This document shows, piece after piece, positions 1-48,309 of a stretch of DNA of 49,163 nucleotides (position 1 is the stretch's first letter; each line of letters opens with the position of its first letter). The stretch is from Ruminococcus sp. Its GTDB lineage: Bacteria; Bacillota; Clostridia; Oscillospirales; Acutalibacteraceae. The position numbers and the translations under genes are program-made. The notes beneath the pieces are model-generated. The model saw only the letters and a list, made by a program, of their open reading frames with translations, did no database searches and was not told the DNA's origin. The stretch lies in NCBI GenBank assembly GCA_017404665.1, contig JAFRBX010000066.1, forward strand, positions 1 to 49,163, given 5' to 3'.

Positions 1-2220
1 GCGGTCTTGGTCGGAGTCTCGCCGGTGTAAGCGGGCGTCTCGCCGTAAGCTACCTGCTCAGTCTTCAGCGTATCGCCGTTGCCGTCGATCCAAGTGATGG
101 TGTACTTGTTGACGGTCGAATCAAACTGCGCGGTATAGGTCGCGTCCTCGGTCACCGCAACGATCTCGGGAGTCCAAGTGTTGTTGAAGGTGTAGGTGTA
201 CTGCGCGTCAGCCGCCTTGGTCGGAGTCTCGCCGTCGTATACGGGAATCTCGCCGTAAGCTACCTCTTCGGTCTTAAGCGTAGTATCCCCATTCTTCCAA
301 GTGACAGTGTACTTGCGCACGCTCTCAGTGAACTGCGCGGTGTAAGTCGCGTCGCCGGTCACAGGAGCAGCCTCGGGATCCCAGCCGCTGAAGGTATAAT
401 CTGTCGACGCGGTAGAATCCTTTGCCGGGGTCTCGCCGGTGTAAGCGGGAGTCTCGCCGTAGGCTACCTGTTCGGTCTTGATTATGTCTTCGCCGTTCTT
501 CCAAGTGATAGTATACTCGTTGACGGTAGAAGTGTAAGTCGCCTTATAGGTCGCGTCACCGGTTACCGGAGCAACAAACGGAGTCCATCCTGCAAAGGTA
601 TAGGTGTACTGCACGTCAGCTTCCTTGGTCGGATTTTCGCCGTAGCTCGGGATCGAGCCGTAGGCAACATTCTCCTTCTTTAACTCGGTGCCGTCCTCAT
701 CCAGCCATGTGATGGTATAGGTGTTGGTCGTGTTGCCGAAAACAGCGGTATAAGTCGCGTCACCGGTTACAGGAACAACAGCGGGCGTCCAGCCGGTGAA
801 GAAGTAGGTGTACTGATCGTCACCCTCCATGGTCGGGGTCTCGCCGGTGTATTCGGGAATCTCGCCGTAGGCTATCTCTTCGGTCTTAAGCGTTGTGTCA
901 CTATTCTTCCAAGTGATGGTGTACTTGCGCGCGCTTTCAGCGAACTGTGCAGTGTAAGTCGCGTCACCGGTCACAGAAACGATCTCAGGAGTCCAAGTGT
1001 TATTGAAGGTGTAGGTGAACTCTGCGGTCGCTGTCTTGGTCGGAGTCTCGCCGGTGTAGGCGGGTATCTCACCGTAAGCAACCTGCTCAGTCTTCAGCGT
1101 GTCGCCGTTGCCGTCGATCCATGTGATGGTATACTCGTTGACAGTCTGATCGAACTGTGCGGTGTAGGTCGCGTCGCCGGTCACTGAGATGATCGCGGGA
1201 GACCAAGTGTTATTGAAGGTATAGGAGTACTGTGCGGTCGCGGTCTTGGTGGGAGTTGCGCCGGTGTAGGCGGGAGTCTCGCCGTAGGCGACCTGCTCAG
1301 TCTTCAGCGTGTCGCCGTTGCCGTCGATCCAAGTGATGGTGTACTTGTTGACGGTCGAATCAAACTGCGCGGTGTAGGTCGCGTTCTCGGTCACTTCTGC
1401 GATCTCGGGAGACCAAGTGTTATTGAAGGTGTAGGTGTACTGTGCGGTCGCGGTCTTTGTCGGGGTCTCGCCGTCATATGCGGGAGTCTCGCCGTAGGCT
1501 ACCTGCTCAGTCTTCAGCGTATCGCCGTTGCCGTCCTTCCAAGTAATGATGTACTTGTTGACGGTCTCGGTATAGGTAGCTTTGTATGTCACATCGCCGG
1601 TGACGTCGGAAACTGCAGGATCCCAATCCTTGAAGGTGTAGGTATACTGGGCGGTCGCCGCCTTAGTCGGGGTTGCGCCGTCATAGCTCGGGGTCGTGCC
1701 GTAAGGAACATACTCGTCCTTTTCGAGCTCGGTGCCGTCTTCGTTCTGCCAGATGACCGTATAGGTGTTGGTAACATCTTTGTAGACCGCGGTATAGGTC
1801 TGATCACCGGTCACCTCAGGCAGCGGATCGTCTTTGCCGTAGGTGGTTGTATTGTCTTTCCAGCCATCGAACGCATAGGTGTACTGCGCGGTCGCTTCCT
1901 TAGTCGGGGTCTCACTGGTGTAGACAGGCACGGCGCCATACTCGACCTCGCTGCTTTGCAGCTCGGTGCCGTCTTCATCCACAAATTGGATCGTGTACTT
2001 GTTGACTGTAGGAGTGAACTCTGCCCTGAATACCATATCGCCTTGCACGGTAGTAGGAACAGGATACCAACCGTCGAAGGTGTAGGTATACTGCGCGGTC
2101 GCATCCCTTGTCGGGGTCGCACCGTTGTATTCCGGCGTCATGCCGCGAAGCATATTCTCGTCGGTTTCGAGAACTTCATTGTTCCAGTTTCTCCATATAA
2201 CGGTATAAGGCGTCAGATCC
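1..2220 (-). repeat. C-terminal tandem repeat array of the giant protein (10 units plus a partial)
   Basis: Ten complete units and one cut by the window edge, each 204-225 nt (68-75 residues). The consensus begins YTITWKDGNGDTLKTEQVAY, followed by GETPAYTGETPTK, then YTYTF and VTGDATYTAQF. The pattern matches the InlB B-repeat / Listeria-Bacteroides repeat class of beta-grasp surface repeats. Some units are nearly identical at DNA level: bases 73-134 equal bases 1312-1373 over 62 nt. Units nearest the binding modules are the most diverged. Confidence 0.85.
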
Positions 2221-5200: not shown

Positions 5201-7073
5201 TCTCATCGAGCGTTACATAAGAATCGGGGAACAGCTGCAGATCCTGATTGATCTCAACCGTACTGTTGCCGGCGATCTCGACGCCGATGTTGCTGATGGG
5301 AAGCTGGAAATTCGCGGTATTCAGCTCGATGCCGACATTCAGCGCCATGGGGTTGATCGCGGCGTCGGCGTTCTCATCCAAGCGGCAGATCAGCTTGTCT
5401 TGTTCATAATCATAATATTTGATCGCGCAGCCCGCGTTCAGCGTGAACATACCGGCGTCGCCGATAAACATCAAGCCGGTGGAGATAGCGCTGCCTGCGG
5501 CGGTCAATGCGCCGACAACATACTCGCGCGAGCCCGCGTTCAACTTCATCTTCGCTTCAACGTTCTGCACATAATACTGCGAGAAGGGGAAAATGCATCC
5601 TCCGGTGGAGGGAACAATATCCGAAATGATCGAGCCGCCGGAGTAGTCGGTGATCTGGAACATTTCATAAACGGTAGCTCCGGACTCACAAATGACGGAA
5701 GGCTCGGAGTCGGACGTCGCGGGAGGATCGCTGACAACAAAGCCCCACGCATACAGGAAAGCGCCGTTGTTGATATTCAGCTTAGCGCCTTCTTTCATGA
5801 TGATGAGACCGTAGCCGCCCTTGACGCATGCAGAGCCGCCGCCGTTGGGAGACCACTGGATACCGCCTACGCTGACCTCAGCGCCGCTAGCGACGTTGAT
5901 GATAACGTTCTCGCTCACGGTCATTGTTACATAAGGAACAGTCGGACCGATCTTTGCGAGCGTAGTCGCTCGGCTGGGGTTCTTTGTATAGTATCCGCTG
6001 CTATTGTAGAGGATATTAGGCTCTGTTCTGTATACATTACGCTCGGCGTCGTTGGGAATCACAAGCGTTACGCCGGACGGAATATCGTAAGAACCGTTAC
6101 CGTCGTCGGGTACAGTAATATCTGTGATCGGGATGATATATTGGTAACCGTTCTCGTTTGCCTCGTTGACCGCCTCACGCAGCGTCGAAACCATCTTGTA
6201 ACCGGTCGTATTGCCGACAAGAATGCTCGGCTCGGTCGCCGGGATAAATACCGCCTCGACGGTGCTGTCGTCCACATCGGGGAAGTAAGTGTAGTCTGCG
6301 ACCGTGGGAGCGATGAGCAGCTCGCTGTCATTGATCTTGTATCCGGCAAAAGTATATCCGGAGTCGGGAGCAGGTGTAAGCTTCAGACCGGAAGAGCTGC
6401 CCACCTCAGGAAATACGACATCTCCCGTTGTGGCGCTAACCTCAGAATCGTTTGCAGTCACAGAACCGCCCGTGGGCGCCTTGACCGTAACCGATCTGTA
6501 AACGGCTTTTTCCAGCGTGATATTAGTCAAATGAGCCTTATGGGTCTTTTGGCTGCTGTCAAGATAAAAGCGGAATACAGACTTATTGTTGGAGCTGCCG
6601 CTGGAAGACAAAGAGCCGGCTACCATATATGAGTTGCCGTCCTCCAGATCAGCGTATATCATTTCAGTTGATCCCGGAGGAACAAAGCCGCAGGTCTGGG
6701 TGTGAATCCCGTCAGTGCTCTCGACCTGATAATCGAAGCGCATGATATAACCGTTCGGGATCTCTACCTTAAACGTCAATTCCATATCAGCCTGACTTCT
6801 GGAACTTACTGTGACGTCAACCGTTTTCTCGGTATTGTCATTGACGTTGACGGTTGCGTATTTTGTTAAACCTGCATTAGCAAATTTGCTGCTTGCCTCA
6901 CTGAACGTGACCGTCTTCGAGGTGCCGTCCTCGAGCTGGAAGGTCAGAGTCTTTGTGGTAGTGCTTTTGCCCCAAATCCATGAGGCCGCCGAACCGCTCA
7001 CCGTAAAGAGGGAAGTGATCAGCAAAAACACCAGCAGCAGAGAGATGAACGATCGTCCGCATCTTTTTAGCAT
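1..7073 (-). CDS. Giant repeat-rich exported protein, 3' end outside window
   Basis: The frame is open from the ATG at 7073 to the window edge (about 2357 codons, no stop), so the C-terminus is missing. The start follows AACGGAGG at 7081-7088. Residues 5-25 are a hydrophobic signal or anchor. Residues ~30-275 are beta-rich. Residues ~278-740 are a repetitive core shared with the two other giants of the island (phrases such as IPSGVTLVIP, YVQNVEAKMKLNAG, FIGDAGMF). Then come four InlB-like repeats (~857-1155), four glycan-binding-like modules (~1159-1616) separated by TEPPTEPP-type linkers, and at least ten more 68-71 residue repeats. I infer a cell-surface adhesin or glycan-binding protein. 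No catalytic motif is visible. An anchor or the shared C-terminal module would be beyond base 1. Its own promoter is at 7219-7247. The exact function is unknown. Confidence 0.9.
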   Translation of the reverse strand, partial: MLKRCGRSFISLLLVFLLITSLFTVSGSAASWIWGKSTTTKTLTFQLEDGTSKTVTFSEASSKFANAGLTKYATVNVNDNTEKTVDVTVSSRSQADMELTFKVEIPNGYIMRFDYQVESTDGIHTQTCGFVPPGSTEMIYADLEDGNSYMVAGSLSSSGSSNNKSVFRFYLDSSQKTHKAHLTNITLEKAVYRSVTVKAPTGGSVTANDSEVSATTGDVVFPEVGSSSGLKLTPAPDSGYTFAGYKINDSELLIAPTVADYTYFPDVDDSTVEAVFIPATEPSILVGNTTGYKMVSTLREAVNEANENGYQYIIPITDITVPDDGNGSYDIPSGVTLVIPNDAERNVYRTEPNILYNSSGYYTKNPSRATTLAKIGPTVPYVTMTVSENVIINVASGAEVSVGGIQWSPNGGGSACVKGGYGLIIMKEGAKLNINNGAFLYAWGFVVSDPPATSDSEPSVICESGATVYEMFQITDYSGGSIISDIVPSTGGCIFPFSQYYVQNVEAKMKLNAGSREYVVGALTAAGSAISTGLMFIGDAGMFTLNAGCAIKYYDYEQDKLICRLDENADAAINPMALNVGIELNTANFQLPISNIGVEIAGNSTVEINQDLQLFPDSYVTLDENSSLDINCNVYVADKATIDGHVMGNVSVKPMVFSATRYIETGDGASHRTANSLDEPYIINDGEVTINPTAKGNDTVGSLNLVGEGGTITGTGTITNNAADSVSPGDIKLISFYYDTDKKRQAGKQEPDPGENDTQCDDIEAMGMAYSYDETRDIWHTDTVSIYFVDSDDEEHYEFIEANYGDTVTAPTWTQEGYKLTWVNGSDVEDTYKPGDSFEAIRFAYYWTEWTEKTAETYTVTWKNDDGTVLETDTDVAEGATPSYGGETPAKESTAQYSYTFAGWSTDGETVIDPLPEVTGDVTYIAVYTETTRTYTVTWTDEFGSELETDYNVPYGTMPIFNSMAPTKDQTEQYTYSFAGWSTDGENVINPLPEVTKDVTYTAQFTQTLRKYMITFLADEFEDHVLQSTEVEYGAVPVYTGEEPTKEAVAAYFFDFAGWSTDGETVIDPLPAVTGEATYRPAFTATLNTYTITWNNWDGSLLEKDENVPFDTMPEYNGDTPTRPADDTYTYTFDGWDPAVESVGGDKIYTAKFTSKLKPTEGYYVVGNFTSDPDGRQWRPGTDFKLDTIEENELYVIRNVALTTSSEFKILYSYDGTDRTTWYPGGDNYGAGGQITADGSYDIYFRKNGDGNTNLGWYEGYIMVLNAGDELPTEPEPTEPPAAGYYVVGNFTTWGLDEAYLMTQVDGADPDLYVFRDLELTTTSQFKVVYTPNGTSQTWYPSGMWNNYGESGEITADGTYDVYFRPDGEGSTDDGWHYGYILAIPAGTELPTEPPTEPPAPTDPPIAPGYYIVGTFTDNEIDETYMMTLNEDQTDYTEYVFTDLALTTDARFKVVGVDENGNQTTYPGAYADPYGAWGQIKSDDTYTVYFRPDGNGDGAWYNGYIKVPGNFVPVTPGYYVIGTFTDWQLDQDYMMTLNEDADVTEYVLRNIHLTKTDDTTDMFKVVYTSNGYETNTWYPSGMGNNYGQNGEIPVDAAYDIYFRPNGQDGWFHDYIFAQDLTPYTVIWRNWNNEVLETDENMLRGMTPEYNGATPTRDATAQYTYTFDGWYPVPTTVQGDMVFRAEFTPTVNKYTIQFVDEDGTELQSSEVEYGAVPVYTSETPTKEATAQYTYAFDGWKDNTTTYGKDDPLPEVTGDQTYTAVYKDVTNTYTVIWQNEDGTELEKDEYVPYGTTPSYDGATPTKAATAQYTYTFKDWDPAVSDVTGDVTYKATYTETVNKYIITWKDGNGDTLKTEQVAYGETPAYDGETPTKTATAQYTYTFNNTWSPEIAEVTENATYTAQFDSTVNKYTITWIDGNGDTLKTEQVAYGETPAYTGATPTKTATAQYSYTFNNTWSPAIISVTGDATYTAQFDQTVNEYTITWIDGNGDTLKTEQVAYGEIPAYTGETPTKTATAEFTYTFNNTWTPEIVSVTGDATYTAQFAESARKYTITWKNSDTTLKTEEIAYGEIPEYTGETPTMEGDDQYTYFFTGWTPAVVPVTGDATYTAVFGNTTNTYTITWLDEDGTELKKENVAYGSIPSYGENPTKEADVQYTYTFAGWTPFVAPVTGDATYKATYTSTVNEYTITWKNGEDIIKTEQVAYGETPAYTGETPAKDSTASTDYTFSGWDPEAAPVTGDATYTAQFTESVRKYTVTWKNGDTTLKTEEVAYGEIPVYDGETPTKAADAQYTYTFNNTWTPEIVAVTEDATYTAQFDSTVNKYTITWIDGNGDTLKTEQVAYGETPAYTGETPTKT
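2225..3600 (-). repeat. Four tandem CBM-like modules within the giant protein
   Basis: Four copies of a ~100-residue module at about 3600-3270, 3240-2920, 2858-2545 and 2535-2225. Each starts GYYVVGNFT or GYYVIGTFTDW, passes through FKVVY and a TWYPSGMGNNYGE-like segment, and ends YDVYFRP, aromatic residues and GYI. Linkers between the first three are rich in Thr, Glu and Pro. Conserved Trp and Tyr and the beta-strand pattern suggest a starch- or glycan-binding beta-sandwich like those in SusE/SusF or CBM-bearing ruminococcal proteins. This is inference from pattern, not a family match. Confidence 0.6.
3610..4503 (-). repeat. N-terminal block of four InlB-like repeats in the giant protein
   Basis: Four longer units (72-78 residues) of the same class as the C-terminal array, each starting YTVTW or YTITW and containing a FAGWSTDGE-type segment followed by PLPEVTGDVTY. 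The extra STDGETVIDP insertion in three of them separates this subfamily from the C-terminal array. They sit between the beta-rich core and the binding modules. Confidence 0.75.
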
Positions 7074-7247: not shown

Positions 7248-7357
7248 TACCATAAAAACAAAAAAGCGTTGCTTCAGGAAAAAAAGATGTACAAATTATA
7301 CAAACTGCATACAGCGGCTTTGATATACCGTTTTTATGCATCCGGCGAATAATGTAC

Positions 7358-7388
7358 AAAAAAGGGGACCGTACTGTGACAGTCCCCT
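7358..7388 (-). terminator. Rho-independent terminator of unit B
   Basis: On the minus strand a stem GGGGAC...GTCCCC is followed by six T residues, starting 13 nt after the dockerin stop codon. The loop contains the near-palindrome ACTGTCACAGT, which also occurs in the terminator at 11065-11104. Confidence 0.85.
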
Positions 7389-7401
7389 CTCATAGGTTCA
7401 T

Positions 7402-7752
7402 TTATCTCATTATCGGAAGCTGATTATCCTCAGTGGGGTCAACGGACGGTATGACGATCGTTTCCCCAACATGATAACCGTCGGCAAGTCCTGCCAGATA
7501 ACGCTGGATCGCAGTCACATCCGGCAGCGACAGCCCGTCGCAGGTCACATCAGCGCGCTGCGCGATCAGCCCGCCCGTATCGGGAAGGATACCCGCGATC
7601 ACACGCTGTGCCGTCGTGACGTCGATCGAAGTAATTTCTCCGTCTCCGTCAGCGTCGCCCTTCACATATGTCAGAGCGGAAACCGTTAGACACGACGCGG
7701 CAGCGACAGCCGCCAATACGAACCCGACAAAGACGCAGAACGCCTTATTCAT
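7402..7752 (-). CDS. Small secreted dockerin-only protein
   Basis: 116 residues. A signal peptide (~1-27, hydrophobic VGFVLAAVAAASCLTVSA) is followed almost at once by a type I dockerin. Repeat 1 has a canonical calcium loop DADGDGEITSID. Repeat 2, DVTCDGLSLPD, is one residue shorter than the usual 12 and has Cys at position 4. A ~25-residue tail follows. There is no enzyme or binding domain, so the protein could plug a cohesin site or act as an adaptor (inference). Dockerins bind cohesins on scaffoldins; no cohesin is seen in this window. The start codon overlaps the stop of the upstream peptide gene (TAATG), so translation is probably coupled. It is the last gene of unit B, with the terminator just behind it. 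Confidence 0.85.
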   Translation of the reverse strand: MNKAFCVFVGFVLAAVAAASCLTVSALTYVKGDADGDGEITSIDVTTAQRVIAGILPDTGGLIAQRADVTCDGLSLPDVTAIQRYLAGLADGYHVGETIVIPSVDPTEDNQLPIMR

Positions 7753-7904
7753 TATCTGTTCGGCATCATTCTGTCGTTATCGCCGAAAAGGAAAGAGAAC
7801 AGCGTATCTTCGCCGGACGTCACGATCACATCTTCCTTTGCAAACTCTGTTACGATCAGAGAGCTTCTCTCATATTCTTCCTTTTTCAGGATCTGTTTGT
7901 TCAT
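7752..7904 (-). CDS. Small peptide of the DVIVTSG family (50 aa)
   Basis: 50 codons from ATG 7904, with AGGAGGG overlapping the stop region of the 969-residue gene. Its stop overlaps the dockerin start (TAATG). Residues 7-31 (EEYERSSLIVTEFAKEDVIV then TSG) closely match the peptide at 11154-11336, while the tails are unrelated. There is no signal peptide, transmembrane segment or cysteine. A conserved front half with a variable tail, placed directly behind a giant surface gene, resembles a leader-core or adaptor arrangement, but I know of no assigned function. The same Y-x-F-x-(E/D)DVI-x-SG style occurs in unnamed short proteins of gut Clostridia (recollection, not checked). The pairing, RBS and conservation make it a real gene. 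Confidence 0.75.
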   Translation of the reverse strand: MNKQILKKEEYERSSLIVTEFAKEDVIVTSGEDTLFSFLFGDNDRMMPNR

Positions 7905-7916
7905 GATTCACCCTCC

Positions 7917-10826
7917 TCAGTCTCTTAAGCTGCTGAAGAATACATCCGCGCTCTGATTATAACCGTACAGTGCCGTAACTGTCTTATACAGCTGATCAGT
8001 CGCGTTCTTGTTCTCCAGTACCTTTTTGATGTAAGCGCCTGCGTTCACCGTAACGGTCGCGCCGTTGATGGTCAGCTTGACGCTGTCGGTCACTTTTGCC
8101 GCTGCGAGATTCTCGACTCTTACGACGTAAGCGATATCGTTATTTCTGACCGAAGCGGCTACGGCTGTTTCCTCTTCATCATCGAACGCGGCGGAAACCG
8201 TAAGCTCCGTCTTGTCCCTATTGATCAAGCAAATGTCATACGAAGTCTTGGTACCGAGGTTCAAAGAGGTGCCGTAGAATTCGAGACCGGCAGGCAGATT
8301 CGCTAAATCATCATCGGTCAGATCAAACAAGCTCACGGATTTGAGGTTCTTCTGCGCGTCAGTCAAGCCGTCGTTCGCGTGAGTATCCGTATTGTATTTG
8401 AATTCATCCTGCGCGGCGGAGCAATAGTTGAGCATGGATTCGACGAGAGCTCGGAGCTTAGCGCCGTAATTGATATAATTCAACGCAGCCGGATCCTGAT
8501 ACTCGTCTATCATATGAGTAAGATCCACATCGGTCTTTGCCAGCAGCTTATACGCGTAAGTCATTCCGCTGTAGGTTTCAGTCTCGATTTCTGTGCCGTC
8601 GTTATACTTCAGCGTTGCGGTGATGGTGTCGTTGAGCTCCTTCGCGGCGATCGGAAGGGTAAACTTATACAGGGAAGCTTCATCATCGTACGCTCCCGTA
8701 ACGTCATTCAACGTATAGGGTTCCTCGGGATCGTATTCATCGGTACTGACATACTTGTTGCCCCAGCTGAAGTCCATCTTGACGTCATCGGCAGTTGAGC
8801 CCGCAGGAAGATCAACATAGAAGTTTACGCCGATATCGCCGTTAAGCGACAGGGAATGCTTCTTGAAATACTCAGAGGGTGTATCAAATACGGCGGTATA
8901 AATAATGGCGCCCCAAACGGGATCAGGTGCTACAACTTTCGGGAAAGAGCGACCGTACAGATAATCAACTTTTTCCAAGTTTTCCATTTCCGGATCTTTA
9001 GATATGTCGTGCCAGCCGATACATTCTCCTGATTCCTCGGGAGCCTCCGGACCGGTGTACACCGGCGTATCTCCTAAGTCATATGCTTTTTGGAAAGAAA
9101 GGTCACTCCCAGCACCGGCATAATACCACATCACATAGTACATAGGTGTAGTCGCTTCGCCGGTTGCCATATCATAATGATTCGGGTCAGAGGTTCCGCC
9201 TAACTGGACATATGTCCCGTCAGCTTTTTTGATATAGGCAATATCATACATCTCATCAGTTTTTTGCCCTGTGTTCGAGTTGTAAAAAGGAACCGAACTG
9301 GTATCTGAATCAGGACAATATATGATCTCACCTGTTCCGTGAACGTTGGAGGTACCATCTGAAGGAGCCTTTGTCAGAAAAGCGCCGTAAACCTCCGCGG
9401 TACCGTTGATCTCAACGTCAGCGTCCTTGATGGCGTCAGCCGTGCCCTCTATGGTAGGCCCATATTGATTCACGCCAATTGAAACGCGCTGCATCGGCAT
9501 ACCTTCAAAAACACCTTCATAAGGAGTGCCTGCATACGGGTCTGTATCTGTAGCCGTGGTATAAGCTACGGGAAAGATCTCAGAATTCGCCATCGCGCTG
9601 CCCACATTCCAGTCAGACGCTGACATGACATAAACGGTTTTTTCCTCGGCAACGCTCACCGTCGCGCCCTCGGCGACAGTCAACTCGGTGCCGGGGAGAA
9701 GCGCAATATTTTCGGCAACATCAACCGTTCCCTCAGCGACCGTAATGGAAATATTATTGGTCAGAGGCAAATACGGGAAACGGGTAGTCGACAGGTCGAT
9801 ACCTGCCATATTTAACGAAAGCGAGCCCAAGGTCGCATCGCAGTGCGACTCGATCGACAGGCGGTCTGTGGCTTCGATATAATCCTTGATCAGATAACCG
9901 TTATCCTCGATCTGGAACATACCTCCGTCGCCGATAAAGGTGATCAGGGTGGAGGAAATATTAAACAGGGTGGCGTATACGATTTCCTTAGCTCCTTTAT
10001 TGACCTTCAGCGGCACTTCGATGTTCTGGATATAATACTGATTAAAAGGAAATACTATATCATCATTCTCTTCTGTATTATTTTTGTTCAATGCCGCAAT
10101 AGTCGCGTCTTTTCCGCGCCAGCCGGTGATCTGGAAATACTCGTAGACTTCGGCGTGGTCGTTTGCCTCGACTACAATATCGTCCTCAGTGCCTGCACCG
10201 TAAATATATCCGAAAGCATACAGCTTTCCGCCGTTATCGACGGTGATCTTGCTGCCGCTGTTCATATGGATACGTCCGTCGGGACCGCTGGGAACACTCT
10301 GTCTGTTTTCCTCTAACCCGCTACCCGGCATCAATTGGCTTTCACCGCCGAGAGCGGATGTAAACGCTTTACCGCCGAGATAGAGAGCGCCGCCGTTTTC
10401 AATCGTCAGCGAAGAGTTGCCTTGCATATCCAAGGTCATATAATTTTCTGGCTTCTTATAAGTGCTCATAGCGGTTTGAGCGCATTTTGAATTATCACTT
10501 AAGACGTCATCACCAAAGATTGTATGATCATCATCAAAGGGAATCAGCAGCGTCGTACCGGACGGGATGGTGCATTGCTCATTGTATGCCAGTGATTTCT
10601 CCGCATTTTGCAGTACGGTGATCACTCTGCCCTGAACAGCAGCAGTTCCGGCAAGGGCAGCTGATAAGGTCGTGAATGTTTGATCCTCTTCACCGGGGAT
10701 CGTCACAAGATAATTTGCTTCACCTTCGGCAGACGCAGGAAAAACAGCCACCGACATGAATGTCGACAGCACCAGTATCAGCGCCAGCAGAAACGACAGC
10801 GTTCGTTTTTGCTTTTTCAAAAACAT
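7917..10826 (-). CDS. Exported beta-rich surface protein, island paralog (969 aa)
   Basis: It starts at ATG 10826 behind TTAGGAGG. A signal peptide covers ~1-33 (LSFLLALILVLSTFMSV, cleavage near ASAEG). Residues ~40-440 are the shared core (IPSGTTLLIPFDDDH, YIQNIEVPLKVNKGA, FIGDGGMF, then strand-rich segments with AEGATVSVAEEKTVYV), a layout suggesting a beta-helix or stacked beta solenoid. Residues ~450-650 are unassigned. Residues ~656-969 are the C-terminal module shared with the 1954-residue protein, starting HSLSLNGDIGVNFYV and ending ALYGYNQSADVFF. Unlike its neighbours it has no InlB-like repeats. No LPXTG, SLH or catalytic motif is visible, so the way it is held at the surface is unknown. 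It heads unit B with the small peptide and the dockerin. Confidence 0.9.
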   Translation of the reverse strand: MFLKKQKRTLSFLLALILVLSTFMSVAVFPASAEGEANYLVTIPGEEDQTFTTLSAALAGTAAVQGRVITVLQNAEKSLAYNEQCTIPSGTTLLIPFDDDHTIFGDDVLSDNSKCAQTAMSTYKKPENYMTLDMQGNSSLTIENGGALYLGGKAFTSALGGESQLMPGSGLEENRQSVPSGPDGRIHMNSGSKITVDNGGKLYAFGYIYGAGTEDDIVVEANDHAEVYEYFQITGWRGKDATIAALNKNNTEENDDIVFPFNQYYIQNIEVPLKVNKGAKEIVYATLFNISSTLITFIGDGGMFQIEDNGYLIKDYIEATDRLSIESHCDATLGSLSLNMAGIDLSTTRFPYLPLTNNISITVAEGTVDVAENIALLPGTELTVAEGATVSVAEEKTVYVMSASDWNVGSAMANSEIFPVAYTTATDTDPYAGTPYEGVFEGMPMQRVSIGVNQYGPTIEGTADAIKDADVEINGTAEVYGAFLTKAPSDGTSNVHGTGEIIYCPDSDTSSVPFYNSNTGQKTDEMYDIAYIKKADGTYVQLGGTSDPNHYDMATGEATTPMYYVMWYYAGAGSDLSFQKAYDLGDTPVYTGPEAPEESGECIGWHDISKDPEMENLEKVDYLYGRSFPKVVAPDPVWGAIIYTAVFDTPSEYFKKHSLSLNGDIGVNFYVDLPAGSTADDVKMDFSWGNKYVSTDEYDPEEPYTLNDVTGAYDDEASLYKFTLPIAAKELNDTITATLKYNDGTEIETETYSGMTYAYKLLAKTDVDLTHMIDEYQDPAALNYINYGAKLRALVESMLNYCSAAQDEFKYNTDTHANDGLTDAQKNLKSVSLFDLTDDDLANLPAGLEFYGTSLNLGTKTSYDICLINRDKTELTVSAAFDDEEETAVAASVRNNDIAYVVRVENLAAAKVTDSVKLTINGATVTVNAGAYIKKVLENKNATDQLYKTVTALYGYNQSADVFFSSLRD
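7920..8862 (-). other. Shared C-terminal module in the 969-aa protein
   Basis: About 313 residues matching the end of the 1954-residue protein. Shared landmarks in order: HSLSLNGDIGVNFY against HSITLDGEIGVSFY; a Lys-rich strand segment with AAKELNDTITATL; a helix pair with LRALVESMLNYCSAAQ followed by YN; FYGTSLNL; and LYGYNQSA...F. I do not know a named family for it. Its terminal position in two paralogs suggests attachment or assembly (inference). Confidence 0.65.
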
Positions 10827-10986
10827 TTTAACATTCCTCCTAAATCAATTTGGGGTTTATGCAAACGCGATCCAAAGGACCGCAAAAAGTACCAAAACGT
10901 AAAACAGGAGCTTACTATTCTGTGAATATCGCTCAAATATCCCGGTCTTTCGAAAGAAGGACATACTTCTCCCCTATTGTAATTAC
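10827..10986 (-). promoter_or_regulatory. Structured 160-nt 5' leader of unit B
   Basis: Between the inferred start (~10986) and the RBS the leader can form several stems: CTTTCGAAAG near 10945-10956, and GCGGTCC-TTT-GGATCGC (about 10866-10882). A GGGG run near the 5' end could pair with a CCCC run just before the RBS. No known riboswitch signature was recognised. The remaining gap up to 11153 holds the promoter and the terminator described separately. Confidence 0.4.
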
Positions 10987-10992
10987 CATAAC

Positions 10993-11021
10993 ATTATGCC
11001 ATTGATCCGATCAAAAGTCAA
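10993..11021 (-). promoter_or_regulatory. Promoter of unit B with an internal palindrome
   Basis: On the minus strand a -35 TTGACT (11016-11021) and a -10 CATAAT (10993-10998) have a 17-bp spacer. The spacer contains the perfect inverted repeat TTGATC-N-GATCAA (11002-11014). The palindrome differs in sequence from the one in the promoter at 7219-7247 but sits in the same place. Confidence 0.7.
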
Positions 11022-11064
11022 TCTATTTTAAAGAATTATAATTAATTTTTTGTGTTTAATAGAC

Positions 11065-11104
11065 AAAAATCCCCGCACAGGACTGTCACAGTCTTATGCG
11101 GGGA
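11065..11104 (-). terminator. Rho-independent terminator of unit A
   Basis: On the minus strand a stem CCCCGCA...TGCGGGG with an inner stem GACTGT/ACAGTC is followed by TTTTT. It lies 50 nt after the stop codon of the 60-residue peptide. Confidence 0.85.
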
Positions 11105-11153
11105 ACTGTCAATTCACGTTATTGCCTATCATTGCCTATCATCCGTAGATAAA

Positions 11154-11336
11154 TCAATACCATGACCCGGGCAGGCTCCTCGAACCGCCGGAGGGTATAC
11201 CGCCGGAGCCTAATAGAGGTATGCCGTTATTTTCTTCGTTAGCGGGAGCGGACACGCCGGAGGTAACGATAACATCATCTTCAGCGAACGCGGTAATGAT
11301 GAGAAGTGTTCTCTGATATGATTCTTTCAAATGCAA
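11154..11336 (-). CDS. Small peptide of the DVIVTSG family (60 aa, TTG start)
   Basis: It starts at TTG 11336; GGAGGAG lies about 6 nt upstream and no in-frame ATG exists. It begins 16 nt after the stop of the 1954-residue gene. Residues 3-27 (LKESYQRTLLIITAFAEDDV then IVTSG) align with the 50-residue peptide at 7752-7904 with roughly two thirds identity, and both share the run DVIVTSG. The tail (~28-60) is rich in Gly, Ser and Pro, has a PSGGSRSLPGSWY end and no counterpart in the paralog. There is no signal peptide, membrane segment or cysteine. Function unknown. A secreted or modified peptide with a conserved leader, or a chaperone or adaptor for the giant protein, are both open. It is the last gene of unit A. 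Confidence 0.72.
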   Translation of the reverse strand: MHLKESYQRTLLIITAFAEDDVIVTSGVSAPANEENNGIPLLGSGGIPSGGSRSLPGSWY

Positions 11337-11352: not shown

Positions 11353-14300
11353 TTACGAGCCGGAGCCGAAATAAGTTACAGCAGCCTGATTATAGTTGTA
11401 AAGCGAAGTAACGGTATTCTCCAGCGTAGCATTACCGCTGACCAAGGCAAGATAGAAATATGTCTTAGCATTATACTTTGCCGTTTCGGCGTTATTATAA
11501 CTCACAGTGATATCCTCTGTCAAGAGGTTTGCAGGCAAATTCATGATATTATAGCGGACATAATAAGCGTCATAGCTGCCCGATACCTTCACTGTGTCTA
11601 CCGTGACGGATTGTCCCTTGACGGTCGCAGTCGCTGCAGGCGGCTCATAGCTTTGATCCGTGTAGCGGAGCCATACGGTGTAGGTGGTCTCGGCTTCGAG
11701 CTGCATGGACGAACCGTAGTAGGTCATACTGTCGGCGCCTGACGCATATTCGGCGGTGTAGAAGCTTTCAAAATCAGCAGCAGTAGCGGCGGTGTATGTG
11801 TAATCCGTCAAATCCTTATCCGCAAGCCCGTCAGCATCCGCATTGTAGCTGAACTGTACCTGCGCCTTTGAACCGTAAGTCAGCAACGCCTTGCACAGCT
11901 CCAGAAGATCCTTGAACTTCTCCGCTGTCATCGTATTGTCGGCTGCATACATCCTTTGATAGATGTCGCTGTTTTCAATAGCGGTATCATCCGCACAATC
12001 CTTGGCGCCGTTGATGACCTCGTAGCAATAATCCGCTACGCAGTAGGTATCAGTCAAAACAGCCTGATGGTCGGTGTCATAGATATTCAAGGTAATGTCG
12101 TCCGCCATCTGCTTCGCCGCGACAAAGGCGGTGAACTGATAATATCCGCCGTTGATCTTCGCCTTGGCGAGCGGCGTCAGGCCGACGCTCGCTCCATTGT
12201 CGGTCCCATGGAAAACGACGTTGGTATCATTCGCGTTGCTGTCCGTCAGATCCGAGATGCTGAACGTCGCTTCACCGTGGTCGGGACCGGTTGCGGGACC
12301 CCATGACAATGCAACCGTGCTGTTAACCGGATCGTCGACGCTTACTGTGGGGATGTAGAAGCTGACGCCGATCTCACCGTCCAGCGTAATAGAGTGCTTG
12401 ATCGCGAGCGAAGTGGTGCTGAACTGCGCGGTATAGGTCACGTCGCCGGTCACGGCAGTGATCGCGGGCGACCAGCCGGAGAAGGTATACGCATACTGAG
12501 TATCCTTATCCTTGGTCGGTGTCGAGTCGTAGGACGGGGTATCGCCGTATGAATACGTTGCCGTCGAAGTCTCACCGTCGACGACCCATGTGACGGTGTA
12601 CGTGTTGACGGTAGAATCGAACTGCGCCGTGTAGGTCGCAGCACCGGTCACGGGAGTGATCGTGGGCGACCATGTGTTATTGAACGTATAGGTATACTGT
12701 GCGGTCGCGGTCTTAGTCGGAGCAGCGCCGATATAAGAAGGCGTACTGCCGTAGGCGACCTGATCGGTCTTGAGCGTGTTGCCGTCGCCGTCCTTCCATG
12801 TAATGGCGTACTCGGTCAGCGATTCGGTGTAAGCAGCCGTAACCGTCATTTCACCGTGAACTTCAGGAAGATCATCAATAACGTCGGCGTGTCCGGAGAT
12901 CTTCCACAGACCGGTGGAAGCCGCCCCGCCAAGCTCAGCGCCGGAAGCGGCAAGCTCGCGCTTATAGCCGGAGCCGGTCGAAGCTCCTCCCTCTTCAACC
13001 TTGACCTTTGTTGCGCCCGCGGGGATCTCTTCGTCTTCATCTATGCAGAAGTACTCATAATCCCAGCCGTCGAAGGAGTAGGTATACTGACCGGTAATGT
13101 CGACCTTGGCCGGTTCTTCGCCGTCATATGTCGGGTCGGTACCGTAGTCTACCGTGTCGGACTTTAATACTGTATCGCCGTTTTTGAACGTATACTGATA
13201 CTGATTGACGGTTTGCTCATAAATCGCGGTATAGGTCGTATCGTCGTTAACCACAACCACCGTACCGGCTGTCAGCGAAGAATCGACTGTTCCGTTTTCA
13301 CCCCCGGTCGACCAGCCTTGGAATGTATACGTATACTGAGCGGTTTTCTTACCGTCGGGATCATCGGGGATGGTCACCGTTTCATTGTCGGCGACATATT
13401 CCTCTTCTTCAGTATTGACGACGCTGTTTTCAAAGACGACCGTGTTGACCTGCGTCCACTTTGCATAGATGGTGGTAGCGCCGGTGACCGTATCGGTTCC
13501 GAAGTTCCACGCGTTGGTGCAGGCAGCTTCCTTATACCAGCCGTCGAAGCGGTATTTGTCACTGCCGACGTCTATGGTGGTGACAGAAGCTTCCGGATAT
13601 GCGGGAGCGGATATCGTGCTTCCCGATTGGACATTCTCGATCGGAGATACGTCGTTGCCCTTACCCTGCTTATCGAATGTCACGGTGTAGAAGCCCGTCC
13701 ACTTGGCGTATACGGTGGTATTGCCCGTTATCTTAGTATTGAAATCAAACGCGGTGTTGAAGCTCGTGTCGGTGTACCAGCCGTCAAAGCGATACTTGCC
13801 GGAGGCTTCCGATACCTCGTCGCCGACCGTCGGCGATGCAGGACGAGTCGCCGTTGTATTGTAATCAACGTTCTGCGAAGCGGGCGCTGTGCCGTGTCCC
13901 TGCATGTCGAAGGTCACGGGGTATTGGCGCACACTCTCAGTATAAGTCGCGGTGTAGGTTTTGTTCGCCGTTGCGGCAGTCGGCGCGGGAGACCACGCTT
14001 TGAAGGTATAGTTTTTAGAAACGGTCGAATAAGCCGGAGCTTCCGCATGCGTCGGTACATCGCCCTGATATACGGTCGTGGTATCACTTGCCGCGCCGCT
14101 TGCGGTCTGCCATGTCCATGTGATGGTGTACTGCGGCTTCGCCTGCCACTTGGCATACAGGGTAAGGTCGGCTTTCTCGTGGAGGGTCACTGAGGCCTTG
14201 TCGGCATAGCTGGTGCCGGTGCCGTCCGCCTTGGTGTTCCAGCCGCTGAAAGTATATCCGTCTCTGGTGAACGTATTTGCAGTAAGAGCCGTAGCCGTCG

Positions 14301-17217
14301 CGCGGATGATGCTCTGAGCGGTCATCGTACCGGTGCCGCCGTTGGCGTCAAAGGTCACCTTCACCGGCGTCTTCTCCCACTGGTTATGGGTCGAGCAGTA
14401 GATGAACTGATTGTCCTTGACAGCGCCGGCGGTGTCGGTCGTGCCGCTGCTGTTTTGCAGCACTGCAGGCTTTATGGTAACTGCCGTTGCGGCAGTATTG
14501 GATGATTTCACTTTTAAAGATGTCGCAGTACCGGCGGCAGTATTAAAAATCACCTTTCCCGTCTTTCCGCTGGACATTACATTTGCGTTGTTCGCAGATG
14601 TATAAAATGCGCCTGAAACACTGATAGTACCATTAATATCGAGTTTTGCATCTGCCAGGCCGGAGGGAAGATTGGGATGTTTATCGTCTGAGGCATCCAG
14701 CACATAGAGATTTTTGCTGCTGTTGATTGCAAGCGTAGCTCCGCTGTTGAGGGTACCGGTCGAGCCCTTGCAGAAAATCAGGTTTTCAGCAAGCGTCGTC
14801 GTTCCGCTGCCTATAGTTATATCAAAATTATACGGTATCACCACACCATTCAATGAAGAAGTATTAACACTATATCCGCTGATACTGATACTCATAGAGT
14901 TAATACTGGAATTACCGTTGATAACTACTTTTTGTCTGGCGTTAGAGATATCAGTAACACTGCTTGTGTTGCGTACAAAAGACTTTGTTAATGATGAACC
15001 GGTACTTGTAGAGAAAAGGTAACTGGTGGAATTGCCGACAAAGTTGACAAACGTACTTTTATAACCAACAACAGTAGAAGTACCGTACATATTGAAATAC
15101 ACTTGCTCTGTGGCGCCGTGATTCAACGTCATAGGCGCCTCAACATTTCGCACGGTGAATTTTGCGAATGGAAATACACCTGCGTTTGTTAAAGAATTGG
15201 TGCTAGACGCGCTGCCGGGATAGTCGGCAACAAACATACTTTCATAAACTTTTGCGCCGCTGTTGACCGTCACCGTACCTGTACCGGTAATATAACCGAA
15301 AGCATATAGGCTTGAACCGCTATTAAATGTAATATTCGATCCGGCTTTCATGTCTATCGAGCCATATGCTCCGTTTTGACCTGTACTCATACAGTAAACT
15401 CTTGAAGCAACACTGACCTCACCGCCGTTAACATACATCATCTTCCCTTGGGGTAATGTCAAAGTACAATATCGCACGACAGTTTCTGTTTTTTGATATT
15501 GTATATAATTGGTTTTTACCGAAGAGTTATCGATAAATGTATGCGCGTCATTATACGGGATCAGCAGCTTTACTCCGCTCTTGACGGTATAGCCATTGTT
15601 GTTCGTCGCCCAATCCAAGCGAGGTTTGCTGCCGGTATACATCGTGTAGTCACGAAGTAAAACAACTGTATTACCGCTGACAGAAGCCTTTAATGCATCC
15701 TCCAGAGTATAATAATCTGTACTGCCTATCTGAGCAACGGGCTGACCAGATCCGGTAATGGTATAAGTCATTGTTTTTTCTGTTTCGCCGCAAACAGCGG
15801 TGAACGTCACCGTAAGATTATCAAACGACGCAACAAGAGAAAAACTGTTATTTGACGCCGTCAGCGATCCGGACGTATTGATACCGGTCGTGCTCCCCGT
15901 TACAGCATAACTGAGGGTTGAACCGCTCTCAGCCTGTGAGAAATCAGCTGTGAAAGTAAAGGGGGTATCCGTACCAATCGGGAAGTTTGTTGCAGCATCC
16001 GGATTAAAATAGGCATCCAATGTGGTTCCGCTAACACTAACCTTTGGCAAAGCGACAAGCTGCTCAAATCTCGCAGTCAACGTTATGGTCCCTTCAAAAT
16101 CATAACGATATAAATTCTCTGTGCCTTCAACAGGATTGACGGAGCATTCCTCAACACCGGTAAACGAATTTGTTCCCACGGGTGTCGCGCTGAAGAACAA
16201 CGGCATATGAACTCCGCTGTAGGAATGACCTACGTCTGCGCCGAAAATGTTTTTGACAGTTACGGTTCCTTTTGTTTCGTCACAGTTTAAAGTAAACGTA
16301 CCGCTCGCCTTCGTAATCGGTCCCAATTTGACCGTTGAAGGAAAACTCAGACACAGAACCGTATCAAAATTTGCTTGTGTATAACTCCATTTATTGTAAT
16401 AGTAATACGTTGTACTTAATGTAGTCCTATTCAGTGTTCCGGCGGAAAAAGGGCCTGTACCCTCATCGCTTTTTTGATTGCTTGCATTCTGATTACCGCT
16501 TTGAACACTGGGCATTAATGCATACCAACCGAGACGACTAATACTGACGCTGGAACTATACCACCCTTCAGCGCCATCGACCGAAGAGAACGAGAGTGCA
16601 GTAGATGGGGATCCGCTATAACCGTTCGCATCCGAACAAGAATTTATCAGTGAATACTTCACGTTACTCGGTGTGCCGGAGGGAGAGTATACATAAACCA
16701 CATAAGTTCCCGTAGAAGAAGGAACGACGCTATAGACGCCCGTCGACGTAGTTGTTGCTACCGGTATCGAAACATTACTGTCTATAGGAGCTGTTACAGT
16801 CCCCATTGAAATATTATTACGGAACTGAGTAAACGAATCATGAGCCGTCATACCGGCTTTTTCCGGAGCAGCATGATCATTAAAAGTAATCGAACTTACG
16901 TATGCAGGAAAGTTACTATCAGATGTCGTTGAAGAGGACGTACTGCTTTTATTATTCTCATAATTCAGCGTTGTCTTATCGCCCAAATGCTTATAGGTCG
17001 CATTAAACGCAGCTTCATCAAAACTGTAGATGTCACCCCAAGAAAGGTCATCGGGAACATAATCAGTATACGCTGAAATCGTCGATTCTTTCGGAGACTC
17101 CTGCGCTACCGCGACCGTGATCGTCAGATAGCAGACGGTCAGCAGGACAACCGCTAATCCGATCAGGAGCTTTTTGTTCATCAAGTACTTTTTGCCTTTT
17201 TCCTTTAAAACCTGCAT
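11353..17217 (-). CDS. Giant exported repeat protein, island paralog (1954 aa)
   Basis: I chose ATG 17217 because GTGAGGT lies 7 nt upstream; longer in-frame starts overlap the preceding gene and lack an RBS. ATG 17179-17181 is a weaker alternative. A hydrophobic segment (~15-40) exports or anchors it. Residues ~60-490 are Ser/Thr-rich beta sequence. Residues ~500-840 are the shared core (VKSGVKLLIPYND, FVGNSTSYLF, YVLDASDD). Residues ~949-1602 hold eight InlB-like repeats, the first a classic VTFDANGG...GYTFSGW...LYAKW unit. Residues ~1608-1954 are the shared C-terminal module, ending LYNYNQAAVTYFGSGS. No LPXTG, SLH, dockerin or catalytic motif is seen. The likely role is surface attachment or glycan binding (inference). 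It follows the acyltransferase gene by 31 nt and precedes a small peptide gene. Confidence 0.9.
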   Translation of the reverse strand: MQVLKEKGKKYLMNKKLLIGLAVVLLTVCYLTITVAVAQESPKESTISAYTDYVPDDLSWGDIYSFDEAAFNATYKHLGDKTTLNYENNKSSTSSSTTSDSNFPAYVSSITFNDHAAPEKAGMTAHDSFTQFRNNISMGTVTAPIDSNVSIPVATTTSTGVYSVVPSSTGTYVVYVYSPSGTPSNVKYSLINSCSDANGYSGSPSTALSFSSVDGAEGWYSSSVSISRLGWYALMPSVQSGNQNASNQKSDEGTGPFSAGTLNRTTLSTTYYYYNKWSYTQANFDTVLCLSFPSTVKLGPITKASGTFTLNCDETKGTVTVKNIFGADVGHSYSGVHMPLFFSATPVGTNSFTGVEECSVNPVEGTENLYRYDFEGTITLTARFEQLVALPKVSVSGTTLDAYFNPDAATNFPIGTDTPFTFTADFSQAESGSTLSYAVTGSTTGINTSGSLTASNNSFSLVASFDNLTVTFTAVCGETEKTMTYTITGSGQPVAQIGSTDYYTLEDALKASVSGNTVVLLRDYTMYTGSKPRLDWATNNNGYTVKSGVKLLIPYNDAHTFIDNSSVKTNYIQYQKTETVVRYCTLTLPQGKMMYVNGGEVSVASRVYCMSTGQNGAYGSIDMKAGSNITFNSGSSLYAFGYITGTGTVTVNSGAKVYESMFVADYPGSASSTNSLTNAGVFPFAKFTVRNVEAPMTLNHGATEQVYFNMYGTSTVVGYKSTFVNFVGNSTSYLFSTSTGSSLTKSFVRNTSSVTDISNARQKVVINGNSSINSMSISISGYSVNTSSLNGVVIPYNFDITIGSGTTTLAENLIFCKGSTGTLNSGATLAINSSKNLYVLDASDDKHPNLPSGLADAKLDINGTISVSGAFYTSANNANVMSSGKTGKVIFNTAAGTATSLKVKSSNTAATAVTIKPAVLQNSSGTTDTAGAVKDNQFIYCSTHNQWEKTPVKVTFDANGGTGTMTAQSIIRATATALTANTFTRDGYTFSGWNTKADGTGTSYADKASVTLHEKADLTLYAKWQAKPQYTITWTWQTASGAASDTTTVYQGDVPTHAEAPAYSTVSKNYTFKAWSPAPTAATANKTYTATYTESVRQYPVTFDMQGHGTAPASQNVDYNTTATRPASPTVGDEVSEASGKYRFDGWYTDTSFNTAFDFNTKITGNTTVYAKWTGFYTVTFDKQGKGNDVSPIENVQSGSTISAPAYPEASVTTIDVGSDKYRFDGWYKEAACTNAWNFGTDTVTGATTIYAKWTQVNTVVFENSVVNTEEEEYVADNETVTIPDDPDGKKTAQYTYTFQGWSTGGENGTVDSSLTAGTVVVVNDDTTYTAIYEQTVNQYQYTFKNGDTVLKSDTVDYGTDPTYDGEEPAKVDITGQYTYSFDGWDYEYFCIDEDEEIPAGATKVKVEEGGASTGSGYKRELAASGAELGGAASTGLWKISGHADVIDDLPEVHGEMTVTAAYTESLTEYAITWKDGDGNTLKTDQVAYGSTPSYIGAAPTKTATAQYTYTFNNTWSPTITPVTGAATYTAQFDSTVNTYTVTWVVDGETSTATYSYGDTPSYDSTPTKDKDTQYAYTFSGWSPAITAVTGDVTYTAQFSTTSLAIKHSITLDGEIGVSFYIPTVSVDDPVNSTVALSWGPATGPDHGEATFSISDLTDSNANDTNVVFHGTDNGASVGLTPLAKAKINGGYYQFTAFVAAKQMADDITLNIYDTDHQAVLTDTYCVADYCYEVINGAKDCADDTAIENSDIYQRMYAADNTMTAEKFKDLLELCKALLTYGSKAQVQFSYNADADGLADKDLTDYTYTAATAADFESFYTAEYASGADSMTYYGSSMQLEAETTYTVWLRYTDQSYEPPAATATVKGQSVTVDTVKVSGSYDAYYVRYNIMNLPANLLTEDITVSYNNAETAKYNAKTYFYLALVSGNATLENTVTSLYNYNQAAVTYFGSGS
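11356..12395 (-). other. Shared C-terminal module in the 1954-aa protein
   Basis: About 345 residues from HSITLDGEIGVSFYI to LYNYNQAAVTYFGSGS, colinear with the end of the 969-residue protein. The middle part contains a helix with LLELCKALLTYGSKAQVQF, then YNADADGL and YYGSSMQLE. I expect the third giant protein to end with a copy beyond base 1. Confidence 0.65.
12412..14372 (-). repeat. Eight InlB / Listeria-Bacteroides-like repeats
   Basis: Units of 66-95 residues. Three end in YAKW (the Flg_new type); the others resemble the YTITWKDGDGNTLKTDQVAY type of the giant protein at 1-7073. One unit (about 12850-13195) carries an insertion with CIDEDEEIPAGA and a Gly/Ser-rich stretch. The two terminal units share the phrasing YTAQFDSTVN with the other giant, which points to exchange or common descent between the two arrays. 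Confidence 0.75.
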
Positions 17218-17247
17218 TTTCGATACCTCACTATTATACTTCAAATA

Positions 17248-17256
17248 ATTATAACA
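17248..17256 (-). promoter_or_regulatory. Possible extended -10 promoter before the 1954-aa gene
   Basis: TGTTATAAT on the minus strand overlaps the stop codon of the acyltransferase gene and would give a short leader of about 24 nt. No good -35 is present at 16-18 bp. It could give the giant gene extra transcription independent of the operon promoter. Confidence 0.35.
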
Positions 17257-18088
17257 AACCAAATATATATCCAATGCCGCAGAACACGGCAGTATATACC
17301 ACGATATGGCTGACGTAGATCACGCCGCTCCACCGCCCGCACCACTGCAGGGGCTTCGTCAGCTTATCCGCCAACGGCGACGGGATCAGCGTCTTTTTCT
17401 CCGGATAGAACCTGCGCCCCAGCACGACGCCGAGCAAAAACCACCCGAGCATCGGGAACACCGGCCAGAAATCGCTCGACTGATCGCCGATCTGCGGCAC
17501 GCCGAAGATATAGAAGATAGGAAACCGCATCGCGGGTACGCCCACATAACGAATATAGTAACCGATCGCAAAGATCGGGATGATGCTGATCAGCAAAAAC
17601 TTATTACTTCTTTTTTCAAATAGATACACATATGCCAGTTGACAAAACGCGTAGCACAGCAGTACGCCGAAGCGGATGAACCGTGTCGGATCGCCGGTCC
17701 AGATCGCAAGTCCCTTAGTGAACAATGCGACGAATAATCCCGCTCCCAACACGGTCAAAGCTCTCTTCAGATTGTTCCGGCTGAACATACAGGAGATACC
17801 GGACAAGACAAAAAAGGCGTTGACGCAAGAACATCTCCACAATTCTCTGATCGTAGGCGTCAGGAAAGCTCGATATATGACGCCGTCCCCGCCCCAATTG
17901 AACCAAAAATGGAGAGGATCGGTCGTATTGACCCATTGGTAGGAATCGATATGATAGTAACCGTCTATACAAAATACATATACGCAGGCGTACAGATGAT
18001 ACGCCAGCACCATCAGTATCAGCAATCCGCGCAATGCGTCGATCTCCCACACACGCTGTTTTTTCAGCGTTGTATTTTTTGAACTCAT
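17249..18088 (-). CDS. DUF1624 / HGSNAT-type membrane acyltransferase
   Basis: 279 residues, multi-pass membrane protein. It opens with RVWEIDALRGLLILMVLAYH, the hallmark of the DUF1624 (heparan-alpha-glucosaminide N-acetyltransferase catalytic) and acyltransferase-3 relatives, with the His near residue 31 a likely catalytic residue. It also has NAFFVLSGISC and, near the end, FPMLGWFLLGVVLGRRFYPE, typical of bacterial DUF1624 proteins. Members are believed to move acetyl or acyl groups from cytoplasmic CoA donors to extracytoplasmic sugars. It overlaps the ligase gene by 4 nt (ATGA), so the two are translated together. The ligase could supply the acyl-CoA donor (inference). The acceptor could be a wall glycan, an exopolysaccharide or a product of the adjacent surface genes. 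Confidence 0.8.
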   Translation of the reverse strand: MSSKNTTLKKQRVWEIDALRGLLILMVLAYHLYACVYVFCIDGYYHIDSYQWVNTTDPLHFWFNWGGDGVIYRAFLTPTIRELWRCSCVNAFFVLSGISCMFSRNNLKRALTVLGAGLFVALFTKGLAIWTGDPTRFIRFGVLLCYAFCQLAYVYLFEKRSNKFLLISIIPIFAIGYYIRYVGVPAMRFPIFYIFGVPQIGDQSSDFWPVFPMLGWFLLGVVLGRRFYPEKKTLIPSPLADKLTKPLQWCGRWSGVIYVSHIVVYTAVFCGIGYIFGLL

Positions 18089-48279: not shown

Positions 48280-48309
48280 AAGACGCCTTCTTTCTAAAGA
48301 TACGGAAAT

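Follow-up and report, generated by a model that had tools for sequence, protein, structure and literature searches.

The closest described relatives of the peptides analysed here are lasso peptide clusters that encode a kinase and a nucleotidyltransferase, such as those of paeninodin (PadeK), pseudomycoidin (PsmK/PsmN) and BsfB1/BsfK. As set out in the available text of PMC9266682 and PMC10368454, these clusters contain PqqD-type, HPr-kinase-like and nucleotidyltransferase genes, and their precursors carry a YxxPxL-like stretch and a Thr-x pair before the core; the family described below has the same gene kinds and similar leaders. According to the accessible part of PMC7533575, HPr kinase, PqqD and nucleotidyltransferase genes accompany ruminal lasso clusters (R. 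albus 8, R. flavefaciens), and LasB homologues are present in the R. albus 8 and R. flavefaciens genomes. These too are Ruminococcus of the rumen, but the clusters are true lasso clusters, unlike the present family, and the leaders shown there (three, e.g. MTYNKPSFEKISSFKESTM) lack an EDVIxTS stretch. In the portion available of PMC7470986, the presence of a PqqD-like protein close to regulators, enzymes and transporters counts as a strong sign of an RRE-dependent RiPP cluster, and that of PMC12710340 gives W/Y/LxxP/L/I as a recognition sequence of many RREs. Two further systems invite comparison: HPr-rel-A (TIGR04352/TIGR04353), in which a PqqD-like protein accompanies an HprK-related kinase as it does here, and the radical SAM/SPASM RiPPs (sactipeptides and ranthipeptides; TIGR04463, PapB family).

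The window is the whole 49,163-nt stretch of DNA analysed, the complete contig JAFRBX010000066.1 of a Ruminococcus sp. assembly (GCA_017404665.1). It encodes two small peptides which, judged from sequence, are probably precursors of an undescribed RiPP-like pathway with a PqqD-bound leader, a modified tail, maturation in trans and a role at the cell surface. Peptide 1 (7752..7904, minus strand) is 50 aa long with an ATG start and reads MNKQILKKEEYERSSLIVTEFAKEDVIVTS / GEDTLFSFLFGDNDRMMPNR; its leader part (7812..7886, minus strand) matches leader profile A5. Peptide 2 (11154..11336, minus strand) is 60 aa long with a TTG start, belongs to the ..PGSWY tail class and matches the same profile at 11256..11327 (minus strand). 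Peptide 1 starts 12 nt after the stop of a 969-aa gene (7917-10826) and peptide 2 starts 16 nt after the stop of a 1973-aa gene (11353-17274), each preceded by a ribosome-binding site that is clear by eye. The front parts of the two match at 62% of 26 residues. Neither peptide contains cysteine, neither shows a signal peptide by eye, and neither matched a family in Pfam or NCBIfam. The original prediction had placed two peptide genes at these coordinates, with these gaps, strong ribosome-binding sites of their own, an aligned N-terminal stretch of about 27 residues and no cysteines or signal peptides, and all of this held. The shared C-terminal domain of the surface proteins, the remote maturation genes, the dockerin partner and the tail classes go beyond it.

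There is a 1-nt overlap between the end of the peptide 1 gene and the beginning of a gene for a small dockerin-like protein (7402..7752, minus strand; 116 aa, with a signal-peptide-like start by eye), giving a unit of large protein, peptide and dockerin protein. After the dockerin gene lies a third large protein (3-7073, minus strand; 2357 aa), which has many repeats and is open at the contig end. Terminator-like hairpins with a T run were found behind peptide 2 (11062..11107, minus strand; z -6.15) and behind the dockerin gene (7353..7396, minus strand; z -3.94); both came from folding, and a simple terminator scan gave neither. A perfect TTGACA-18-TATAAT match (11523-11494, minus strand) falls within the 3' terminal part of the 1973-aa gene, about 160 nt before peptide 2. 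It might drive peptide 2 separately, though the region has 8 promoter matches of any strength against 6.7 in shuffled sequence.

A profile built from the peptides of this genome (G000) recovered 12 of them there; the family of two that had been predicted is thus real and larger. Across 98 genomes, this one included, 138 peptides were found in 44 genomes at E <=0.01 for one genome; chance may account for a few of the weakest matches, two of which sit in open frames of 303 and 640 aa. The 59 named loci are assigned to Ruminococcus, Ruminococcaceae, Clostridiales or Clostridia, with one in Lachnospiraceae. They come mostly from metagenome assemblies, several of them from rumen, abomasum or ileum, with R. 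flavefaciens ND2009 and Ruminococcaceae bacterium P7 also carrying the family. When 299 genomes sampled evenly from the phylum were searched, the leader profile matched only this genome and one other of the same order, so the family is either narrow or fast-changing. This narrowness (2/299) counts against a RiPP assignment.

The leader spans about 26 residues and reads Y-x-x-[T/P/L]-x-[L/M/I] ... F ... ED-V-I-x-T-S; behind it comes a tail that changes fast. Among 99 distinct peptides from the fetched loci, 96 fit one pattern of fixed spacing, by which the absence of gaps in the leader is partly a matter of construction. Within these 96, Y holds the first place in 93, L/M/I position +5 in 92, F position +10 in 89, D position +14 in 95, I position +16 in 91, T position +18 in 83 and S position +19 in 94; a G follows the leader S in 56. 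Short precursors with a conserved leader and a variable core are what is expected of RiPPs, and the peptides have this form.

Codon-level comparison points the same way. In 27 pairs of equal tail length, pN was 0.08 and pS 0.56 for the leader, and pN 0.34 and pS 0.70 for the tail; the leader pN is biased low, because all 179 pairs of the test, these 27 among them, were selected with a leader pN below 0.12. Synonymous sites in the leaders of the pairs are far from identical. Two paralogues on contig C73 of this genome differ at 8 synonymous and 0 non-synonymous sites in 20 leader codons. On these comparisons, leaders change slowly and tails fast. Lack of codon-level conservation had been named as grounds for giving up the family; the leader shows such conservation, within the limit set by the selection of pairs.

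The surface proteins that precede the peptides have a C-terminal domain (CTD) in common. It occupies 7917..8870 (minus strand) of the 969-aa protein (7917..10826, minus strand), which has a signal-peptide-like start by eye and lies directly upstream of peptide 1, and 11353..12405 (minus strand) of the 1973-aa protein (11353..17274, minus strand), which carries List_Bact_rpt repeats and lies directly upstream of peptide 2. The two copies are 27% identical; the description of the large proteins as paralogous stands for the CTD, the part that was compared. The domain is about 310 residues long over 27 aligned rows. No Pfam family covers it, with only scattered weak matches (best E 0.0062), and no sequence relative was found in the PDB. 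Its AlphaFold model is confident (pLDDT 87.6, pTM 0.88) and is read as two repeats, each of strands followed by helices.

Pairing of CTD genes with peptides recurs well outside the window. A peptide follows seven of the eight CTD genes of this genome, the exception being on contig C48. Across the 98 genomes, 58 of 92 CTD matches have a peptide within 200 nt behind them on the same strand (median gap 24 nt); this rule scores the C41 pair of this genome as a miss, because further protein sequence follows the CTD there. Among the named loci and those of this genome, 46 of 76 distinct peptides lie within 150 nt behind a CTD-protein gene. Peptides are present in 28 of the 29 genomes with a CTD, as against 16 of the 69 without. 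With 12 peptides in the genome and at least one in 44 of 98 genomes, the repeated pairing with giant genes is not chance, as had been supposed. Profile hits scattered without any link to giant surface genes would have spoken against it; the 58 of 92 CTD matches with a peptide behind them show such a link.

The same gene order can be read differently. The whole, unprocessed peptide could serve as an adaptor or chaperone that binds the CTD of the preceding surface protein and aids its folding or export, with PqqD concerning only some copies. Besides the tight order behind CTD genes, in this genome and in the wider sample, the short gaps and strong ribosome-binding sites would suit such a role. 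We consider it distinctly unlikely: no CTD match lies within the 200 nt ahead of 80 of the 138 peptides, leaders do not differ in kind between peptides that have a CTD partner and those that have none, and the cysteine tails near radical SAM genes and the doubled tail motifs, both described below, argue against it. Hardly credible is a third reading, in which translation of the peptide, rather than its product, would tune expression of the surface-protein operon. The close spacing behind the large gene and the hairpin just after peptide 2 are compatible with it; against it stand the conservation of leader amino acids over synonymous change, the copies that follow dockerin genes on contigs C42 and C73, and the link to PqqD.

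The PqqD link supports a precursor function. A PqqD gene lies downstream on the same strand within 5 kb of at least 24 of the 138 peptides in the 98 genomes, against about 0.46 expected from gene numbers and a flat 2-Mb genome. Peptide-PqqD pairs also occur in other families of the order (G067, G077, G081). For the named loci and those of this genome, PqqD lies no more than 5 kb downstream of 22 of the 76 peptides and upstream of one; within 8 kb of the 76 are 18 NTP_transf_5 (NTP5), 11 S26-like and 7 HPr-kinase-like genes. This genome has three PqqD genes, on contigs C41, C73 and C55, and two of the three matches begin 377 and 393 nt downstream of the point where a peptide match begins. The family leaders, with Y-x-x-[T/P/L]-x-[L/M/I], compare to the RRE recognition sequence. 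An RRE of the PqqD family encoded with the precursor, a mark of RiPP pathways, is found at these loci of the family, and not at the two window loci.

Several observations count against the RiPP reading. There is no PqqD match on the window contig. PqqD was not seen within 5 kb downstream of 54 of the 76 peptides, though many of the flanks are short, and it is common in the group regardless (77 of 98 genomes). Beside the window peptides, no modifying enzyme, leader protease or exporter was seen; the window does encode, about 19 kb away from the closer of the two peptides, a radical SAM protein (30060-31490, minus strand) and, about 36 kb away, an ordinary HPr kinase (47314-48354, minus strand).

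A candidate maturation cluster, locus L123, combines CTD proteins, two peptides, PqqD, NTP5, an HPr-kinase-like protein, an S26-like protein and an ABC exporter. Most of this gene set recurs in L098, L102 and L104. Among the genes of such clusters, Pfam identifies PqqD (3e-18), NTP_transf_5 (8e-42) and ABC exporters (2.7e-34). In L155, from another family, a CTD protein, a peptide, a lipoprotein-like protein, an HPr-kinase-like and an S26-like protein occur together; L156 has CTD, peptide, HPr-kinase-like, S26-like and NTP5 genes, and L154 a peptide with HPr-kinase-like, ABC and NTP5 genes. For these three loci, PqqD comes from a separate search of the genomes and not from gene picking at the locus. 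On contig C55 of this genome (L036, 7951-10320), PqqD and S26-like genes are followed by a protein with a dockerin-like end by eye, and no leader peptide was seen there. The front of that protein looks CotH-like.

Two of the enzyme kinds, the HPr-kinase-like and the separate S26-like proteins, fall below cut-off against their nearest models, which counts against the RiPP reading; for the S26-like proteins these are signal peptidase models. On C41, where the S26-like part is joined to NTP_transf_5, its match to Peptidase_S24 clears the cut-off (29.1 vs 23.3 bits), and six S26-like sequences retain SMxP, HR and GDN and have no membrane spans predicted from hydropathy. With 18.4 of 33.3 bits, the HPr-kinase-like protein encoded in L123 stays under the Hpr_kinase_C cut-off. 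A structure model of the HPr-kinase-like protein is fair (79.2, pTM 0.76). The P-loop is retained in four of five such proteins and absent from the copy of this genome on C73 (L016, 5332-6000), which has also lost other residues kept in the four relatives; this too counts against the RiPP reading. HPr-rel-A models fall far below cut-off here, the highest scores being 19.1 for a cut-off of 35 bits and 14.9 for one of 200 bits, so the set is not assigned to that system. The terms S26, S24 and signal peptidase do not occur in the available text of a leader-protease review (PMC10885120), and an S26-like leader protease is without precedent in the portion of the literature seen, a further point against the RiPP reading.

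With PqqD, kinase and nucleotidyltransferase genes near the peptides, lasso precursors deserve a comparison of their own: the leader would supply YxxPxL, Thr would stand at -2 and Gly would be core residue 1, with PqqD as B1. The leader does resemble the lasso leader shown in the accessible part of PMC10368454. The PqqD proteins match lasso PqqD models best, though below cut-off, and the nearest PDB sequences of one of them are the B1 proteins TbiB1 and TfuB1 (E 0.05-0.08). We nevertheless regard this reading as very improbable. The B2 protease (PF13471) has 0 matches in this genome and exceeds cut-off in four of the 98, in none of them beside a peptide. The four Asn-synthetase matches of this genome all lie on peptide-free contigs; with three of the matched proteins as queries, none turned up in loci L001-L127. 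Taking Gly as residue 1, peptide 1 has no Asp or Glu at core positions 7-9 and does not suit a lasso ring, whereas peptide 2 has Glu8 and Glu9. The family differs from the lasso kinase clusters further in that some of its clusters have an S26-like protease and that many precursors are dispersed behind surface-protein genes. Lasso membership was dropped, with no B2 protease or cyclase beside the peptides as far as these searches reach.

A minority of tails contains cysteine, and here the neighbourhood changes with the tail. Among 84 peptides, all six with a cysteine tail lie within 5.5 kb of a radical SAM gene, as recognised by the motif CxxxC-x-[YF]-C, compared with two of the 78 without cysteine. 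L055 was added after its radical SAM gene had been seen; without it the count is five of five (Fisher 7e-7), and by independent loci, of which there are only three (L098, L104 and L159), about 2.5e-4 with the locus count rounded to 60. One of the two L159 peptides is encoded on the opposite strand. Of the radical SAM genes, those of L098 and L159 match Pfam Radical_SAM over cut-off and SPASM RiPP maturase models below it, and the calls in L104, L055 and the two loci of cysteine-less peptides depend on the motif. The cysteine-bearing minority thus resembles the sactipeptide and ranthipeptide systems in its radical SAM neighbours and differs from them in the weak maturase matches of the two checked genes; the window peptides have neither core cysteines nor a SPASM radical SAM maturase beside them and are not placed with those systems. 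Since one leader is found with cysteine tails near radical SAM genes and with cysteine-less tails elsewhere, the front half is hard to explain unless it is a leader.

The tails fall into classes: ..EDDELPFxPNR, ..ENAYGSFDSF..PGSWF, ..NPWEMPVGM and ..YEGWNPH, the last occurring twice within a single precursor in L087 and L058, with a Gly/Ser-rich stretch between the two copies. The two window tails had been called unrelated; they do differ, but each falls in a class found elsewhere. Peptide 2 ends in PGSWY, of the same class as copies on contigs C42 and C73 (PGSWF), and peptide 1 ends in MMPNR, which resembles the ..PNR tails of C35 and some relatives. Of the two designs originally proposed, leader-core or adaptor, the first is well supported by the linkage to PqqD and tailoring genes, the association of cysteine with radical SAM, the doubled tails and the contrast of a constant leader with a fast tail; the unprocessed adaptor has the low probability given above, and the mature product may still have an adaptor role.

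Similar tails also occur on other carriers. The window dockerin protein (Dockerin_1, E 7.7e-5, 23.3 bits vs a cut-off of 22.9) ends in ..TEDNQLPIMR, a tail of the peptides' class. In L080 the peptide ends in YEDDELPFMPNH, the next gene, a dockerin protein, in YDEYELPFIPSH, and a lipoprotein further on in TDEYELPFIPAN; these three carriers share one gene run with PqqD and NTP_transf_5. In L112 a lipoprotein and a peptide have DDGLDWSPL[V/T]PVN in common, and in L155, from another family, the lipoprotein-like neighbour ends in DVELPFVPFD. DNA-level repeats were rejected as the source of tail sharing in L080 and L112, where codons differ at synonymous sites. Of 99 peptides, 31 carry a C-terminal motif ([ENQ][LMI]P plus 2-6 residues). 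So do 7 of 14 small dockerin proteins and, in addition, the dockerin protein of the window, which was counted in this class and not among the lipoproteins, where the script had sorted it. Elsewhere it is found in 3 of the 31 other lipoproteins, in 1 of 121 further exported proteins and in 3 of the 571 proteins that remain. Fisher values for this motif are overstated, because it was chosen after the tails had been seen and proteins were sorted by regular expressions. A strict test of tail sharing gave a weak signal overall: 5 of 74 peptides reached p <= 0.02 where 1.5 were expected (binomial P 0.017), with much of the signal from L080 and L112 and a case in L106 that looks like chance. As far as these sequences indicate, tail sharing across carriers is a real but partial pattern.

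A tentative and rather doubtful proposal is that one tail serves several carriers: a DEYELPFIPxx-type motif on a leader-guided peptide, an exported dockerin protein and a lipoprotein would form a system for labelling or recognition at the surface of gut fibre degraders. If this were true, matured peptide, cellulosome-docked proteins and membrane-anchored proteins would show the same modified or recognised tail beside the CTD at the surface. A second gene set, in L012, L016, L080 and L107, consists of a lipoprotein ending in DNAEV[DN][IF]NDL, a dockerin protein, a PGSWF peptide and a multi-span membrane protein; its dockerin protein ends in [ED]GWGxxxFxP in L012, L080 and L107.

For the favoured precursor reading, a pathway can be outlined. 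The PqqD protein would bind the leader through its Y-x-x-x-x-[LMI] stretch, tailoring enzymes would act on the tail, the S26-like protease would cleave after the ..I-x-T-S end of the leader, and the ABC protein would export the core. Since the window contig has no PqqD, maturation enzymes would have to come from other contigs, and the window precursors may be served in trans by the clusters on C41 and C73, the third PqqD being on C55. According to the accessible part of PMC10368454, a lasso B1 protein speeds precursor phosphorylation and aids leader removal, so such a gene set can act before any cyclase. The mature peptide may then act at the cell surface with the CTD protein, as partner or signal, a role suggested by the precursor being encoded directly behind a CTD-bearing surface protein.

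The enzyme kinds around the peptides are already known. The part of the literature seen describes neither this leader family nor its dispersal behind CTD genes, and neither an S26-like protease in this setting nor the shared tails; six seven-letter motif strings did not occur in the literature searched, a search that left subscription journals mostly outside. If the precursor reading is right, Ruminococcus and its near kin would have a RiPP-like family that has gone unnoticed, with precursors spread through the genome and linked to genes for large surface proteins. With precursors scattered behind surface genes in this way, cluster mining centred on enzymes would miss most of them. The leader profile is ready for use, and the soluble S26-like protein is a candidate for a new type of leader protease. 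The family would further provide a natural set in which one leader goes with more than one chemistry, and a direct route to the role of the product at the cell surface.
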